From positions 682,001-746,000 of the forward strand of contig JBBELK010000096.1 in NCBI GenBank assembly GCA_037783545.1: a stretch of DNA of 64,000 bases, given 5' to 3'. The DNA is from Henricia sp. BOLD:AAB3569 (Eukaryota; Echinodermata; Asteroidea; Spinulosida; Echinasteridae). The number at the start of each line of letters is the position of its first letter. Position 1 is the stretch's first letter. The translations under genes and the position numbers were made by a program. The notes beneath the pieces are model-generated. The model had not been told where the DNA came from. It saw only the letters and a program-made list of their open reading frames with translations, and did not search any database. Below are positions 2,804-41,800 of this stretch, one piece after another.

Positions 2804-5800
2804 GTAAGTGACACTTTGTTCAACGCTGTACAGAGAAAAATAAAATAAGGAGCCACTGGCTCCTAAGGAAAAAAAGATGGGCGCCGGCATTTATATTTTA
2901 AACTGGTAAAATAAACTTATCGAAACATAAAAAGTACCTGTACAGTTTCCAGTTGCACAAAATCCACAATTGGCCATGTGCATAGACTTGTTAAAGGTCA
3001 CGACATTATTTTTTTCCTTAAATTGGCTATGTCACGGTTTGCGCATGCGCCAAGTCCTTTCATATTTTGACATACGTGCGTGCTCAGATGAATGTAGTGC
3101 ACTTTCGTTACACAACGCCATTGGTGTGTGTGCTATAGTTGTGTACATCGTGTACTTAGCACGTGCCGCATGGGCAGTGTGTTCGTTCATGAGTGTTTAC
3201 AATACGCAGAATTCAACTACATTGTGCATCGTTTGTGTGCATTTGTTCGATTTGGCATCGCGCGCGCGCGCGATTGCGAGATCAATGTCTGGAAAAACAA
3301 AATCGTACAGCGGTGGCGGCCACTTTCCAAGGACAGAAGGTATGCTGTAAAATTGCTGTCGGGACCAAATAAGCATGTCAGTTTTGATGGAAAACAAGGT
3401 TAAGTAAATTGCTGTATCCAACCATGTCATTCAATTCATTCGATGAAACAAGTCTGACACATGAGAAACACGTGCATAGTCTGGTGCAGGAGTAGCAGCT
3501 GCAAGTGAACGCGTGCGCAAAACGTTTCCCCGTTGACGTAAGTGTAGCAATTTGTGCGAGTGTACACGTAAAGCGCGAGACTGCAAACCAGTCTACATTG
3601 TTGGGTATAGTCTGATACCTATGCGTGTATACATACGTATTTGCACAAAAGCTGCGTTGGGCACAATACATACCCAAGCTGTGGCCGGTTGCATGCCGCG
3701 AGTGAGAGCAGAACACTGGACTTGAATACATGTACATTGTACTACCCGTAAACATCACTGACAAGGTGGGCGACTAATGTGCGAATTTTGTGGTCGCCAA
3801 TTTAACCACTGATCGCATGTGAACATTTTTAGGCGCCAATGCGACCATTTTAGTCTCACTGTACAGCGTTGACTTTGTTCATTATTTTCTATGAATAGGT
3901 GATTTTTTTTAGGGAATGTCGGGGTGAATTAATTTGATGCAAATGTGGACAAATGTCCATGAGTTTGTGAAATCTGGATTCAGTGCAAAACAACTTGGTT
4001 CCACTGCGATTCGAACCGCAGACCTTCTGCTTGATGTGCAGATGCCCTACTGATTGGGCTATGAAGCCAACTGTTGGTTTTGACACAATAGAATTGGGTG
4101 AACTGTCTCAGATATTTATGAATGCAGGACAACCCACAATCATTGCTTTAGAGCATATCTCTTTTATACATGTTATACATGTAAATACTGTATTTCTGGT
4201 ATACATGTATAATGGCTTTGGCAAGCTTCCATACATCTCTTTGCAGCCATTGTTAAAGATAGTATACATGATTGGTAAACTGTTACAAATAGTTTTATTC
4301 CCCTGTGTGATTGAAGATATGCATGATTGAAACCAACCTGAGCAAAAACCAGCTCGGTACGTCGTCTAACTTTTGAGAAAACATTAAAAAAAGGGTTTGC
4401 AATCATTTCGCCCCAAAACCACTTCGCCCCGAACCATTTCGCCCTAAACCACGGCCTGTGCACGAAGTGGTTTTTGGGGGGAAGTGGCATTTGGGTGATG
4501 TAGTGTTTGGACGAAGTAATTTGGGGCGAAATGGTACTCGAGGTGGGCGAGGTGGTTTGAGGCGAAATTGCACTTGGGCAAAATGGTTTTGGAGCGAATT
4601 GAATTTTCGTCTCATGAGACGAAAACAAATTGTTTTACTCATTTCTCAAAGACTATAGCACTTCAGACAAAACCATTTCAGCAGACGTTTTCTACGGTCA
4701 TCATGTTTATATTGTGTAAGTTAGGCGTAAATCTGTGAACATTTGTGATTTTCGAGATTACCAACGATGTATACTGCCTTTAAGGACAAAGGGTAATACA
4801 CTTTCTAAATGCAGCCCAATGACAAATAGCCAAAAAAGATATGTTTAGCCATGAATTGTAAGATTTAAAATGTCCATTCTTAATTAAACATTCATTAATA
4901 ACGGTTTTACCCTTTCCAAGAGTTACAGCAACTGACACCTAAAATACGGTAACCAAAAAATACCGACTTGTAACATCACCTGTTGCCTTTCTTGACAGTT
5001 GTTGGATAATGGACTGGAGGTTTTGGCCCAGGAAGAGAAGACATTGACAGAGGATGAAGCCAGGGATTTCTACAAGGAACATGAGGATGAGGTGTGTGTG
5101 AGTTTGTATTTAAAGGCCCTATAGATGATCTGTTTTTGAGCGATTCTGGGAACAAAACCATTATAAATAAAAAGAAGAACATCAAAAAAACCTATCTGAA
5201 GTCTTTTCAGCTCCGTCAAATACACTACGTTGTCCAAAAACATGAAAAATCCATGCACGTTTTGCCGCTCTTGACGAGGCGTTTCAACGCAACTTATTCT
5301 AAATTTGTCTCTTCATTCTCAGTTGGTCGCGTACATATATGGGTCTTTCAACGCTAATGGGCCTATTTGAAAGATAAGTCAATAATTTTTGGGCAAAAGT
5401 TATCTCCTAGGAACAGTACAAGGGAATTTTTTTAAGTTTGAGATAAACTGAAGACATCTGAAAGGAATTATTGACTTATTTTTCAAATAGGTCCATTAGC
5501 GTGGAGAGACCCATATGCACTCTGTGGCTCGCGTCATACTGGTTGTGTCCGCAACCAGTCCAGTCCACATGCACAGCTTAGCCTACCTACGGAAAGTGTG
5601 CTAAGCCTGAATCGTGCAGCCTGTACACAGCGCTCGTTTCAGACCGCCCAGATCGTTTGCAAACAATCTAAATAAGTTCATCTTTATGGAATATTTTCTT
5701 GTAAAATTCTGTCCTCTCGGGCGGAAACATTTGATTGGATAGTTTCTACCAATTCAATCTTTACTTTGAAGGTCTTCCTAGACGACTCATTGATTGACAT

Positions 5801-17800: not shown

Positions 17801-20800
17801 AACCGTGTCCCAGTGCTTTTGCAATGGTACTTCTTCCGACGGCCATGATAGTTTAGATCCAATTTCCATGGCAACGCACGTCACACTTCGGCTGTCTATT
17901 CCATGGAGCTATCAACCAGGTTATACCGGGATTATTTCAAAATTGCTGTCCGTAGGCACGGGTTTATTTTTCATTGAAGCATGGTGGAAGCAAAACAACT
18001 GAACTCATTAACCATGCGCGGTAAAATATTGTTACGTCGATACACTGTCATTGTACACTGCCACTTTGTTATAAACTGTTTTGCCCATTTTCCTCGTAAA
18101 TTACTGCGAGTGTAGACGTCAAAAGCAGTAACAAATGAATTTCCCCTAAACGTGTTAACTAGTCCTCCGCTACACCGATGCAGAAATATTGGCTTGTTTA
18201 AATGTCCTCCAGCGTCAAGTGGTTAGGCACATAAATTTGTTCAGCACAAATATTATATTACATGTATCTACCAATGATTATCAGACAGTAATAACAAAAA
18301 TTATTTAGCCCCAGTTTGTGAATTGTAATAACAAATTCTATCTCGGTTATCAACATTTCAAAAATAGGACCTCGACAAAAATGCATGTCTTGAAACAAAA
18401 GTTTCCTCAAATGGGACACGACTGAAACAAACCATCTGATTTCTTTCATTGCATGTACGTTTACTGGCATGTGTTTTTGTGTATGATAAGTCATAACTAC
18501 TTTCTCCAGTTTAAAGAACTATTTAAAAATTCATGGTTAGCAACGTTACAGTTAGTCATGTTACAGCTTACAGAAAACGAAAATGAATTTGTAGTGAATT
18601 TTCCTCAACAATTCAACACCAAATGTGTTTTTGCAGAAGCTTGTTGCATATGCTAACATTTAAAGTCACTTTCAACACGAATATAAATAATTCAAAATTT
18701 TATGGAAATGTCCACCTCTTCGACGTGGAATTGCCCCTGTATAGTTTTCCTATTTAAAAGCTGGATCCTTCCGCTCAAAGAAACCAAAGCGAGTCACCCG
18801 GATTCTCCCGAATCCCACCCGCAGCTGATGAAGGGCAGACGGTAGCCTAGAAAGCTAGCTCCTGCTTCACCAAAAGGAACTGAAAAACGTTCCTTTGCTC
18901 GCAAAAACCCACCCACATCCCATCCCATATTACCAATGTAAAATAAACCCAGTAAAACGGAACAATTGGACACACTTAAATTTTGAAATTAAAATAACAT
19001 TTTATTTCAAACAATAAAAACAAGTCGACCAGAACGGCCGTGTCACTGAATGGGTAAGCACCATCACCCCCTTTTACTAAAATTTTATGGAAATGTCCAC
19101 CTTTTCGTGGAATTGCCCCTGTATAGTTTTCCATTTTTGACCGATAGTTTGTTGGCACTTTTCATTGTAGTTTGCGTGCTCAGTTCACCCCAGCTGATCT
19201 CTCAATCAACTGCCTACATGGTAGCGATTCTGTGGAAGCGGCCAAGAAAGAACTCAATTACTTCTTCCCTACAGAACACACATTGGCAGTTATTAAGCCT
19301 GACGCGTCCTCGGAACACAAAGGTCGGGTATATTGTTGATATAACAATACAATTTATTTTGTGTGAATAGTGATTATATTTTTATGGGATTATAACCCAG
19401 GGACCGCCGAGGTGAACTTATTGATACAAATGTGGACAAATGTGGACAAATGTCCATGATCGAGTTTGGGGCATATATTAAATTATCTCTGGGAGGGGCG
19501 GTTATCTCATTGTAGAGCTTACTAAGCTTACGTGATAGCCAATCCCAATCAGTGAGAAACAACTGCAATACCGTGATTCGAGACCACCAGTTGGCTTCAT
19601 AGCTCAATTGGTAGGGCATCTGCACAATAAGCAGAAGGTCCGCGGTTCGAATCCCGGTGAAGCCAAGTTGCTTTTCACTGCATCCAAATTTCCCAAACTC
19701 GATCATGGACATTTGTCCACGTTTGTATACGATTTATTTTGTCACACATTTAAAAAGACTTTTTATGGAAATCGCCCAACACAAGGCCAAAATGGCCTGC
19801 TAAAGTGAGGGCAACGTTAGTTAAAGAACATAACTGAACATGAAATTTATCACTAAAGTTTGTTTATAAACCAAACTATTAAACAGTGTTCTGGTACTAC
19901 AAAAATGGAAAATAAATCTGAAATTGAATTAGCTTGCGTTGGGGAGACTGAATGTTAATTAGGGTTTGTTTTTGCCCTTACCCGACATAATTATTAACAC
20001 TGTACACTCGGTGCTTTCCTGAGACACTATGAAAACTTCATAGCATACTCGGGTGGGACTCGATCCCACGACCTACTGCAAACAAGGCAGACGTCTTAAC
20101 CACTCGACCACTGAGCTAGCCGGTGTTGAATGGCCGGTTCAAATAATTTGGCAACGGGGATCGCAATTAATCAGAAACTGATTTAGCTTGTGTCTGGGAG
20201 ACGGAATGTTAATTAGGTTTTGTTTTGTCCTAATAAAATGGATCTATTTTACGAATCAAATAGTAATTTATACGTCTGTTTACAAAAAGCACTTGAAAAG
20301 AAATGGTTTTTCATTCTTTGTTCTCGTTTTCAAATTCCATTTTTATAAAAAAAAATCAGAGATGAATTTAGAAACACATGAATATATATATATCTTCAAT
20401 TTTTAAAAATCAGAAATATAGTACGAGTAACAGTACAAACAATAGTAGAAACAACATTTGAAAGAAAGAATCACCAAAAATTCACTTGCAGATTTTTGAG
20501 TTCTTCACGGAAAGTATCTTAAAAAGGGTATGCAAACTTTACAATAAAGAGGTTTCACAAGCAAACGGATAAATGCACACATGCGTCCATAACTGTTTAG
20601 TGACATTTTTGTGGTTTTTCAACTTCAAAACTAGAGCGTGTTAGCTAAAAGGCATCTATTTCCGACGGCAGTAAAACTACCCAGCACAACACAGCTTTGA
20701 TACTAATTTTACCCAAATAAGCATTGAAATGTAGAAAACGTTCATATACATTCATAATTAATACCCTTTTCAAATGAGGAAAAAAACACTAGAAATCAAA

Positions 20801-23800
20801 AATTGTACTACGTGTATATTGCTTACGCATAGCGAGCTCGATATCCATGCCATGCAAATGCGTAGCTAATAGTGAGACGTGTATGACGTCACAACCTGTG
20901 ACGTATCCATCGCGCTATCCGTATCCGTGCGTTTCTGAAACCTCTCTAATATTTAAAAGCAAACATTGCAATTAAATCCCGGCTCATACTTCACACGAAA
21001 GTAATTACAATTACAAATTTGACATCAAAGCGAAGTTTTTGTGCCACAAATTTGCAAAAAGTTGAAATAGTTTCTAACTGCATGAACATTTGCTTGGATA
21101 TTGTTGCTATGTCCTCAACGCTATCGTCAAAATGTCCACACACACTGCACAAACCAATGGGACTTTCAATAACGTAAAGCACAGATTCATTGGAGGAAAC
21201 TCAAAGGTATTCATGTTTCAGGGTCGACAGTTATCTTAGAACACACTGAGTAAAGGGCCAGTAATACAGGGATGTCATATCATGAAATACGTGCTTTCTT
21301 ACCTTTGAACAGCGAATCGCCCGGCCTTGAAACCAAAAATTCACCCGTATCACCGCATACAACACTGTACAAACTGAATGGCAGAAAATTGCATGATGAT
21401 GTTGTGAGAAAATGCACTTTGACCTATGTGGGCGCTGTCTGCTAGCTCTGTTGTGATTGGTCGGTGGGTTCAGCTTGATTGACAGGTTGGAACTATGCAT
21501 TAGTCTTTAGTAAAACAAAACAAAAAAACTAGAAAACGTGAGCGTTGCTTATTAAGTTATCATTGACTGTTGTACATGTAGATGCCATCATTGAGAAAAT
21601 TCACGAGGCTGGCTTTAACATTGCATGTCAGAAGAGCGTTCATCTCAACAGGGACCTGGCAGAGCAGCTCTACAAGGAACATGAGGGCAAGGAATTCTTT
21701 GACAGTCTTCTTGATCACATGACAAGGTGAGAGGGACACTGACCTCTTTTATGAATTGGCATTGGCAAATATCTTTGACTTGTCAGCTTGCATTAGTGGA
21801 ATAAAGGTATGGATTGTCGGTCTTAAGAGCACGTTTAAGAGCACATCTACCATATCAGAAACTATCCACCCAGTACAAAACAGCCTTAAATGGTTATTTG
21901 CCAGTGCACGCAATGGCAACTTAAAACCAATGGCAATGGCATTTTAGCAGTAGAAACAGCAGATAATTATTTTTAGTGGTGTACGTCTTTTTAACTGCCA
22001 TACGTAGTGTGCCAAATACCGGTATTTTTTTCCGCAGTAAAAACAGCCAAAATAATGGTCAAAGGTGTTGCCCAATGCATTGGCAAAAACAATTTAATGC
22101 AGGTTCTTGCAGTAGAAGCACACTACAAGACTCGGGGTTGTAATAAGTCGAACTCCAGACTCGGACTCGAGTTGACTCAAGTCCAGATTTTAACTGACTT
22201 GACTTGAGACTCGAACCTCAAATGACTTGACTTGACCCGACTCGGATTGGTACATTTTTTGACTTGGGTTTACCAAAAATTAAATTGAACTTTTATGCAT
22301 TTGTTGTCAAGGACCGAATTGTTTTTCCTAACTAAAACATAATCTTTGAACATGGAGCATTGTTGGCCAGAATAACAAAAATGCCCTACACGAATGCACG
22401 ATTCAGGGTTTAGACTCATTTTGAAATTGAACAAATACTACTTGACTTGAACCAAATTAGCCAACATGCCTGACTTGACTTGGGACTTGGAGGCAGCTTG
22501 ACCTGACTTGACTTGGGACTCGAAGGCAGTTTGACTTGACTTGACTTGGGACTCGAACGCAGTTTGACTTGACTTGACTTGGGACTCGAAGGCAGTTTGA
22601 CTTGACTTGACTTGGGACTCGAAGGCAGTTTGACTTGACTTGACTTGGGACTCGAAGGCAGTTTGACTTGACTAGACTTGGGACTCGAATGCAGTTTGAC
22701 TTGACTTGACTTGGGACTCCAAGGCAGTTTGACTTGACTTGACTTGGGACTCCAAGGTTTTTTTTTCGATCGTGCGTTACAAAAACATGCACACAGATCA
22801 ACTTATGCAAATTTATTACTGTACATACTGTGTTCAATCTGCTTTCCCATATGTTCAGTTTTTATGTGTGAGCATGTTCTTTCTGGGTCGAGACTAGAAA
22901 TCGTGTAAGACTGGGTCAGCCAGTCCTTATCATCCGTTTACGACTAGCCATGTGACCAATAGAAATGGGTAAACTGTTTTAGGTATTTACGAATGTTTAA
23001 TTAATACTGGGGATGTTATGGTAGTGGTTGAGCACACCAAGTAGCTATAGAATGTGTCAAGTAGCTGGCCATGACTGTCCAAGACTTGTTCCTGAGCAAG
23101 ACAGTTTGTCATATTTCAAGAAGCTTGTTCAGATTTTTCCAGAAAATGGATTTCGTTCAAACCCAACAGTCATATAAAATACCTCCCCAAAATACTATCC
23201 ATGGGAAGAAAACGGAAAATTTTAAATCCCTAATTTGGATGTGCATGGAAGCAAAAATGTTGGTGTAATCACTGCACTGTTTTATATAACCGGATAAATT
23301 AGTTTACAAAACGTAACATTGGTTTTTGACGAATACGATATCTTTGGAAATAAGTGGATTGGGAGCGCTAAATTTCAGAATGGTAATGAGAAAAATATGA
23401 CATGATATGGTATCAATTTCTTTACATCCATCGAAAAAATGGGGGAGGCTCAAAATGTGGTCTGGACATGCTCCTTTAATCTCTCGGAGCAACTTGGGCA
23501 ACTATACATAAGCCAGCCTGAGAAAACTAGCGTGCAATAGACCGATCCAGTAAGCTCCGCCCATTTTGGAATTGACCAATCACAGCCTCAGGTTGAGGTA
23601 ACCAAAAGGTGGATCTCCATTTTGGTTACCCGAGTCCTCAATTTTGTGCACAGAGCTACGGCGAAATGCAGCACGAGTGACGCAAAAACACCATAAACAT
23701 AATTTTTATCAGCGCAGAGGACCCTAGCCGGTTTAAACGGATTGTATAAGACTATCCTAACCTACTTTTAATCCCTTCATAAATGTGTTTTTGTGTAAAC

Positions 23801-38800: not shown

Positions 38801-41800
38801 ATGGGTTAATGGTCGAAATTGCATGTCAACTTGTGTTTTTCACAAGAATATCTGCTGTTCTTGCTAAAAACACAAGTTGACATGCAATTTTTGACTATTA
38901 ACCCATTTTTATAAAGCAAACAAATTTTTGATTAAGCAAATGTTTTTGCTGAACAGCTTTATGAAATTGGCCCCAGATTGTAATTCTTCACTGTGTGTAC
39001 TTCCGGTGCACCCAGCAAATGTTACGCTGATTGTGTTTCTACTGCGAAAGACAATCGGTATTATACTGCATAGTCCACCTTGAGAGGTGGTTAAAGGTTC
39101 GTGGTAGCGTACCCGGCATTACACAGAAAATTTGTCACTCCGTTCTGTTTCTACTGGGCCCGTGAATTGGCTCTACTCCAAACTACTGGACAATAACTGG
39201 TAATGCTCCTCGGTAGAAACACGCAGTTAGTCCCATTCACGTTTGGGAAATCGCTATATTTAATAAAGATTCAACAAAGGTTTAGAATCTCTTCAAAATA
39301 GCTTTATTCGACGAAGAGATCACTTAATTTGACTGGCAACATGGCTTTCTAAAATCTCCCTGTATAAATTTCCCATAATTAAACTTTGGGTAACAGGACA
39401 GACACTTGTGAGACATCTTGGTCTGTCTTGTTATGTAAAGTTACATATACGTGAAATTTGTGCAGATATGTTTTCTACATGTACATGTAACCATTTTAGG
39501 ACTTGGATCTTTTTAGAACAAGGTAAATTTATTTCTTCCGTTTTGAGACAAGCATTTGTAAGGGGCTATCCATACGTGAGAAAGACTCGTATACACTAAT
39601 TATTCCTTCTCGGAAATAAAGTAAACATTTCTTTCAGAAATTTAACATGATATTCTCGGGCTTGTTTTTGTTTGGTTTCCTTGTTTATCTGTCACACTTT
39701 CAAATGTTACTTGATGTTTTTCCTGGCTGAGCAGAGCCATCACAGGAACCTGCACCAGAGGAGGCTGAGCAGCAGGAACAGCAGCCTGCAACTGGTGAGG
39801 CATTCCCACGTTGCATTAAATTTCATTATGTTCACATCTTACCAGGGCAGTTGACATTACTGTACATGTACATGTTTACATAAATTAGCGAATAAAAGTG
39901 TGTTTGTCCAGTTTTAAACACTCATCAATCATCACTCATCCAGGCCCCTTTTAAGCATATTGTTTAAGACTGGACAAACCCACTTTTATTCCCATTCATA
40001 AATACCTTTTTGTGTAAATCATTAAAACTCACTTTGGCTGTACATGCATCGCGTTCGTTCAAACTGCTAGCTGTGCGTCAAGTTGTTTTTGTTCCTATCG
40101 TGCGTGCTACGCAAAATGTAGGCGTATTGTATGCGCATGCATATGACGGGGTACTTATTTTTGTCACAGTGCACATTTTGCTTTCGGCCATCGGGCGCAG
40201 TTTCTGTGTGCATGTTCCATACGCACTGACTAGGGCGTGGGCGTGGGCGCGGACCAGGCCGACCGGTCTTTATTGTCCATTTAAAGCCCTGTCCGCATTG
40301 GACTTTTTTTGGGAAAACTTACCGAGACGATGGGTACTTTTTCCATTTTAAGTCCAATGCGGACAGCCCAGGGAGTTTTCCTCTCAGGAACTTTTCCCGA
40401 GTCCAGCAGTTACTTTTCCTGGCCAACTGCTGCCCAGAAAAAGTTCCCAGGTAACTTTTCCCCGAGATGAAAGTCCAATGCGGACACAGCGAGTCGGTAA
40501 AAGCGCTCTGGAAGCGTACGTCCCGGCCAAGAAGGTCAAACTGTGAAGGGACACTGCGAATGCTCTCCCACGGTCTCGGTAAAACTTTACTGTACGTGTC
40601 AAAAAGTCCAAATGCGGGCGGCAGTAAAATTTAGCCATTTTTCATTTTACCATCGTCTCAGTAAAACCTCCCAAAAAACAAGTCCAATGCGGACACTGCT
40701 AAAGACTGGCCACGTGACGTGCTCTCGGCCAATAGGGATGTGTATGTGTAAACTGTCTAAGGTATTTATGAATAAGAGAATAAAGGCGTGGGTGGCCGGT
40801 CTTGAAGGGGAATTATACTCGAGAAACAAAAGACCTTGTGCTCAACAAGTACAACTCGTAAATTGTTTTAATGCAAAGAACGAGGAATTATACCAACTAA
40901 AAAGTAGATACTTTTTCATGGACTGCCATAGGAATGCACAACGCACTTTTACGCAGAAACGTCAACCTTTTCCCAGTATTTGGACAAAATGGCAATGCCC
41001 ATACATGTAGTGCGACGCAGGAAAAACATTGAATATGCTGAGTGTGTTTAAGGGCATGTAAATTGACGAGACGATGTAAATTGAGCGGTACTAAATGTCC
41101 ACAAAATGAAGCCAGCCTGTGAGACACGCGTGTTTTCGCTTTTGGAATTGCTATAAAATTTCTGGAATCAGCAAACTATCACTAGAAATTTAATTTAGTT
41201 GGAGATCGATTCCGGCGTGGAATTGCCCAAGCCTAGTCAAATTGTTGATAAATTTAGCAGTAAATTTTTAGTAGTTACAACAGCGGTAAATGCTAGTATG
41301 AATGTTTCACCTTAATACTTTTAAAGGTGAGGAATTACTTTGTAATATTTGTCGGCAATCCTTGAGGCTAATATAACCCACTGTGTACTAGCTAGTTTAT
41401 TTACTGGATGTCTTTTTAATTGTGGCCTATATCGCAGCTCACTCAAAAAAAGCATGTTATATTTTTGTAATTTCCTCGTACAAGGTAAGGAAGAAAAAGC
41501 TACTAATGGTGATCAGGAACAAGCAGTTGAGGACACACCCACAGAGCAACAGACGGCTGAGGAAAAGCCATCGGAAAATGACCAAACGGCCAAACCAGAA
41601 CTGTCACAAGGTCAGTCATTTAAATATAACAAGGCCAAATTTAAAACATTTGAGAGTTTAAGGCAGAACACATGAGTGGTAAACCGTTACAAATGGTTTT
41701 ATCTCCCTGTGTGATTGAAGATATGCATGATTAAAACCAACCTGAGCAAAAACCAGCTCCGTACTTTGTCTAACTTTTGAGAAAACAGTCAAAAAAGGCT

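Follow-up and report, generated by a model that had tools for sequence, protein, structure and literature searches.

Penelope-like elements (PLEs) have been described with pseudo-LTRs, tandem units, two-ORF forms that lack an endonuclease, and minimal hammerheads (PMC11167929, PMC3846280, PMC6431247, PMC7761336), and the endonuclease-less forms are treated as a subgroup of their own (PMC6431247). Their hammerheads are reported to be minimal, with helix III absent or nearly so, and to act possibly as dimers (PMC7761336, PMC6155905). The motif analysed here shares with the minimal type I PLE hammerheads (Cervera and de la Pena 2014; Lunse et al. 2017, as cited in PMC7761336) the same core, a very short stem III, a UTR repeated in tandems, and possible dimer action; it differs in having A·A at the base of stem II and a palindromic stem III of 2–3 bp, and it is a candidate ribozyme. 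PAc of Anolis, as presented in PMC11167929, is likewise a PLE whose tandem units carry a hammerhead in the pseudo-LTR, but it has a C-terminal GIY-YIG endonuclease and a hammerhead that overlaps the ORF start, whereas we found no endonuclease in the Henricia element, and its predicted cut lies ~220 nt before the 3' end. The endonuclease-less two-ORF PLEs and Terminons of PMC6431247 and PMC3846280 also have two ORFs and a reverse transcriptase (RT) protein without endonuclease, and Terminons also carry a hammerhead in the 3' region. These elements are described there as telomere-tied, whereas the Henricia copies that were read are dispersed. At 85 loci, some of them overlapping, no instance was seen of any of five short telomere-type patterns, three of which were sought on one strand only.

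A hammerhead-like motif in the window

The window, the whole stretch of 64,000 nt of Henricia sp. DNA that was analysed, holds a hammerhead-like core at 18821–18865 that is real and improbable by chance. The initial annotation had described a complete core with three stems, and all of its parts are present: stem I (GCAG 18821–18824 pairs with CTGC 18862–18865), the core strands CTGATGA (18825–18831) and GAA (18850–18852), stem II (GGGC 18833–18836 with GCCT 18845–18848), and stem III (AGC 18853–18855 with GCT 18858–18860). The A·A pair that it had pointed out at the base of stem II is there as well, between A18832 and A18849. Stem III is very short, as claimed, and its letters allow three pairs; these would leave a 2-nt loop, so a one-strand form with two pairs and a 4-nt loop is more realistic. 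Cleavage had been placed at C18860, but base 18860 is T; we take C18861 to be position 17 by hammerhead numbering, after which a cut would be expected. The features of the locus are as follows.

18694–18750, plus strand: left copy of the most likely target-site duplication, 57 nt (repeat comparison)
18751–19078, plus strand: very probable 5'-truncated copy of an endonuclease-less PLE, 3' UTR only (match limits and alignment to the 3.07-kb copy L049)
18821–18865, plus strand: hammerhead-like motif, minimal type I (sequence, shuffles, family alignment)
18853–18860, plus strand: palindrome AGCTAGCT, stem III with 2–3 bp on one strand or 8 bp between two strands
18861, plus strand: presumed C17, the base after which a cut is predicted if the motif is active
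18873–18896, plus strand: possible hairpin AAAGGAAC..GTTCCTTT directly 3' of the motif (seen by eye, letters checked)
19079–19132, plus strand: right copy of the most likely target-site duplication, 54 nt (repeat comparison)

Under relaxed rules, the window has a complete motif at a single place, compared with a mean of 0.015 per shuffle in 200 dinucleotide shuffles (three of which contained one), which makes a chance motif unlikely. The bare CTGANGA..GAAA skeleton is not in excess in the window (two seen, three expected). Rfam covariance models did not bear out the hammerhead of the initial annotation in the window copy: a search of the whole window returned none at the gathering score and none with E up to 10, and a search of 18600–19200 alone, also with E up to 10, was equally negative. 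When three further family copies were run through cmscan, L034 and L077 gave no hammerhead, and L082 aligned to HH9 (RF02275), sharing its letters in stem I and the core, with a score of 17.9 bits (E 0.8; gathering score 52). Neither the window copy nor any of these three reaches the gathering score of an Rfam hammerhead family.

The window copy as a remnant of a retroelement

With high probability, the window feature is what remains of the 3' UTR of an endonuclease-less PLE with two ORFs; this judgement covers its identity and fossil state, and cleavage is a separate matter. The copy is 98% identical to positions 2745–3061 of L049, and its 5' edge is uncertain by a few bases. Direct repeats adjoin it on both sides, with 93% identity and with one substitution and a 3-nt indel between them; the 55-base direct repeat of the initial annotation exists, in two copies of unequal length. 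We searched the 741-Mb genome with 18695–19135 as the query, in which the left repeat occupies positions 1–56 and the right repeat starts at 385. The best 40 of 870 candidates were scored, so that divergent copies are under-sampled, and 41 matches were listed, a dispersed family that agrees with the suggested mobile-element origin. The other 40 listed matches begin at query position 59 or beyond and finish by 394, never entering the left repeat and reaching no more than 10 nt into the right one. The repeats, which had been counted as part of the element, are thus not common to the other listed matches and are most likely, from this comparison, a target-site duplication outside it.

Flanking duplications were surveyed at 19 loci with a usable 5' boundary, several of these boundaries being approximate. 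They were found at two loci, the window and L049, and none was seen at the other 17. The L049 duplication is perfect, 49 nt long and placed at the element ends, but is weaker evidence because it sits in a locally repetitive stretch.

Pieces of NDK domains are encoded on the strand of the motif at ~16495, 19148, and 21542, in frames around the element, which supports a gene with several NDK domains, called NME8-like in the initial annotation, and upholds the placement of the element among exons. The window has other features of its own. At 19424–19728, a tRNA-like sequence (19593–19665) is enclosed by the arms of a palindromic element, which are inverted, 35 nt long and 97% complementary, and a related tRNA-like sequence lies on the minus strand at 3996–4068. 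A tandem repeat at 22416–22861 reads KSSQVKLPSSP repeatedly in minus-strand frames. A long hairpin at 38809–38897 scores 45.9 of 100 bits with the mir-964 model, below gathering, and is perhaps a repeat hairpin.

Full-length copies, tandems, and deletion derivatives

We fetched 38 regions that cover the other 40 listed matches, plus 20 longer stretches. Most copies run further upstream than the window copy, by up to ~2.8 kb, and what the initial annotation took for a small non-autonomous unit is the 3'-terminal part of a retroelement of ~3.2 kb. The long copies measure ~3.17 kb (L056, 3,166 nt) and comprise a short ORF1 of ~200 aa, an ORF2 encoding a 680-aa RT, and a 3' UTR of ~330 nt, in which the motif follows the RT stop codon at a distance of ~70 nt. 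A C-rich tract and TTTAC close the UTR in most copies. The RT (P0001) matches Pfam RVT_1 (E=1.5e-9); no endonuclease, including GIY-YIG, was matched in Pfam by the RT or the ORF1 frame (P0003), and a PDB sequence search with the RT gave no match. The RT contains LPKIHK and PPLIAFKKAENLK, which we take to be Penelope-type motifs, and its C-terminus ends shortly after a presumably Penelope-typical motif. From these motifs and the anatomy of the element, we infer that the RT is Penelope-like.

The L050 locus holds a complete unit, then a further unit in head-to-tail order that has an internal deletion, then a UTR fragment, and L048 is a partial tandem as well; in both, UTRs are placed as pseudo-LTRs in the manner of PLEs. 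The link to PLEs drawn by the initial annotation is supported by the two ORFs, the tandem units, and the position of the motif, a hammerhead core with a very short stem III, in the UTR, together with the probable Penelope type of the RT. A LINE 3' end was dropped as a candidate on the RT sequence and the tandem units. TTCCTGACAAAATG is found at the tandem junction of L050 and at the 5' ends of L050 and L059. The unit may therefore begin a few bases before the point assigned here, as would happen if a tandem or circular template had been copied.

A genome search with the RT gave 92 matches, four of which belong to the family and have full frames of 680–681 aa with no stops (three at 99–100% identity and one at 88%). 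A fifth full frame without stops (678 aa) belongs to a family that is 44% identical in RT. One contig carries this diverged RT family (C1225:59728-61743, 64774-66099, and 67161-69176; 44–47% aa identity to P0001), with three close copies in mixed orientation and a protein that ends in a similar LLEEQ tail. The 3' regions of all three copies contain a broken look-alike of the motif, which we rejected as a hammerhead because, by eye, its position 17 is G and the core has an additional A beside it.

Two types of deletion derivative recur, and both retain the motif. One, without the RT core, was recognised by its junction at eight loci (on contigs C112, C478, C1007, C898, C290, C1374, C319, and C71), with the C1007 and C898 copies near-identical through their flanks. 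The other, shorter type occurs at four loci (L017–L020), two of them (L018 and L019) near-identical. These non-autonomous forms are internally deleted PLE copies of ~0.5–2 kb.

Ten pieces (L047, L053, L054, L061, L064, L079–L081, L083, and L084) share a 3' flank (TTTATTTTATAAAAACTGAC...) from ~+330, and old copies therefore seem to be carried in a larger amplified repeat. Two members of this group, L080 and L083, have a common deletion of the motif. Elsewhere in the genome, RF00163 gives at least 11 matches over the Rfam cut-off. The seven that were fetched (L067–L073, on C210, C126, C64, C99, C355, C622, and C684) represent a separate dispersed repeat, similar over ~270–440 bp and bearing a type I hammerhead, which is possibly a true retrozyme-like family. 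We discarded these seven as relatives of the PLE, since they have no meaningful match to the L049 copy.

Conservation of the motif across copies

We aligned 39 copies, omitting L027_1001, a UTR piece without the motif, and L033, whose match is below the length cut-off and whose 5' end lies within the core. Both core strands are intact in 37 of the 39: C3–A9 differs in L031 and G12–A14 in L023, each being intact in the other 38 copies. Three stem II bases are lost in L011 and L015. In bins of 25 nt, minority letters amount to 1.3% and 2.0% in the two bins that hold most of the motif and to 2.8–19% in the remaining bins; the bin with the 3' end of the motif has 3.5%, and 28 of the 34 minority letters there belong to 18868 and 18870, beyond the end of the motif. 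The stretches that adjoin the motif are also highly conserved, and the possible hairpin 3' of it falls inside well conserved bins. Four pairs (L018/L019, L028/L029, L034/L035, and L038/L044) are 99.8–100% identical through their flanks and may each be one insertion, so the 39 rows are not independent.

Six of nine further family copies, obtained through the RT search, keep the core letters, with stem III or its loop changed in two of the six (L081 and L084); the other three (L079, L080, and L083) have lost the motif wholly or partly. For five of 12 pieces, we compared lineages with the window: the motif is 96–98% identical, and the rest of the UTR is 56–92% identical. The motif differences are confined to loop II in four of the five comparisons. 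L077, L078, and L085 share one variant, whose two differences in 49 positions both fall in loop II. In L082, loop II likewise takes all the changes, a 3-nt deletion and two mismatches over 46 aligned letters, while the last stretch of the L082 UTR has 56% identity to that of the window. The single difference in L084 is in stem III. Judged by its letters, the motif is clearly conserved, and few parts of the UTR are as well conserved.

For covariation, we used 14 chosen motif variants of 50 letters each, leaving out variants that differ only outside the 50 letters and the L015 variant, which differs only past stem I. No stem has a double change in this set. The letters are conserved, yet they do not covary, and the structure is therefore not proven by covariation. 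The initial annotation had set random changes of the core in other copies against a conserved core with covarying stems: the core is indeed not randomly changed, and the covarying stems are absent. The A·A pair at the base of stem II is the usual state, occurring in 12 of the 13 distinct variants with letters there; the remaining variant, that of the L034 type, has A-U and stands in seven of the 39 rows.

Folding and the dimer model

As a single strand, the window motif is predicted to favour another fold (-12.5 kcal/mol) over the hammerhead (-6.2 kcal/mol), and the 61-nt piece shows no excess stability over its shuffles (z +0.76). Two strands can pair through the palindrome AGCUAGCU into an 8-bp stem III. 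The dimer fold with two hammerheads reaches -29.6 kcal/mol, compared with -25.0 for two monomers (2 x -12.5) and -35.9 for the best dimer fold. A dimeric hammerhead formed through the palindromic stem III is thus plausible as a model, and agrees with the minimal and possibly dimeric hammerheads published for PLEs. The PAc hammerhead is reported to have cut only in the presence of protein (PMC11167929), and one hammerhead family of the axolotl is described with U·U at the base of helix II (PMC7229834), an observation that leaves room for a ribozyme with a mismatch at this place.

Alternative readings of the motif and the window copy

A hammerhead between direct repeats in ~330 bp would fit a metazoan retrozyme, a small non-autonomous element spread by circular RNA, and animal retrozymes of ~170–400 nt are on record (PMC7229834). 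We consider this reading very improbable. It fails because the flanking repeats are absent from the other listed matches and best read as a target-site duplication, and it is largely refuted by this together with the continuation of most listed matches into the RT. We found neither a small unit with repeats or a tandem arrangement of its own nor a canonical type I hammerhead score, and the non-autonomous forms in this family are the internally deleted PLE copies. The proposal that the intronic copy cuts the nascent NDK-gene transcript and alters its splicing draws on the shared strand of motif and exon pieces and on the distance of ~90 nt from the end of the element to a likely acceptor that was identified by eye near 19168; against a single copy with a mismatched stem II and an unstable fold, it is scarcely credible. 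Both circular RNA and a splicing effect of the window copy are unsupported, and this copy, a lone fossil whose stem II is mismatched, is probably inert and without action on its gene.

A reading that competes over function, and is compatible with the identity of the element as a PLE, is that the motif is conserved for another role, such as RT binding, a priming structure, or a pseudo-LTR regulatory site, its hammerhead look being incidental or degenerate. The conservation of the neighbouring stretches, the usual A·A mismatch, the lack of covariation, and the failure of the monomer to fold as a hammerhead all favour it. It accounts less well for the retention of both core strands in nearly all aligned copies and for variation limited to loop II in one variant (L077/L078/L085) and another (L082), the latter with loop II shortened; moreover, such motifs are reported from PLEs in general (PMC6155905). 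We regard this other role as a real possibility, somewhat short of an even chance.

A model for insertion and RNA processing

The hammerhead-like motif is the conserved UTR motif of the element family itself. The locus most probably arose when an element, inserting by reverse transcription, entered the intron strongly 5'-truncated and ~55 bp of the target were duplicated. Tandem copies would place the UTR between two units. Two tandem motifs could then pair through the palindromic stem III as a dimeric hammerhead, which might process multimeric transcripts to unit-length RNAs by cutting after C17, a step for and against which the chances seem about equal. As no endonuclease was found, insertion may occur at pre-existing breaks. 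Such break-primed insertion would mostly leave no duplication and occasionally a long one, and the observed mixture of none and long duplications would fit it. The most complete version of this model, in which a recently active endonuclease-less two-ORF PLE spreads off telomeres through DNA breaks with no or ~50-bp duplications, its hammerhead works only as a dimer despite the usual A·A, and unit-length (perhaps circular) templates also feed the deletion derivatives, is speculative and, with all its parts combined, unlikely.

Small ribozymes are already known in Penelope-type elements, the motif found here is of a known kind, and there is nothing unusual about the window copy. What minimal hammerheads do in PLEs is described as unknown (PMC7761336). 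With its near-identical full RT frames, two-motif tandems, and motif-keeping derivatives, the Henricia family offers a natural set in which to ask whether a ribozyme sets the unit length of the RNA, and it bears on how endonuclease-less PLEs might insert off telomeres.
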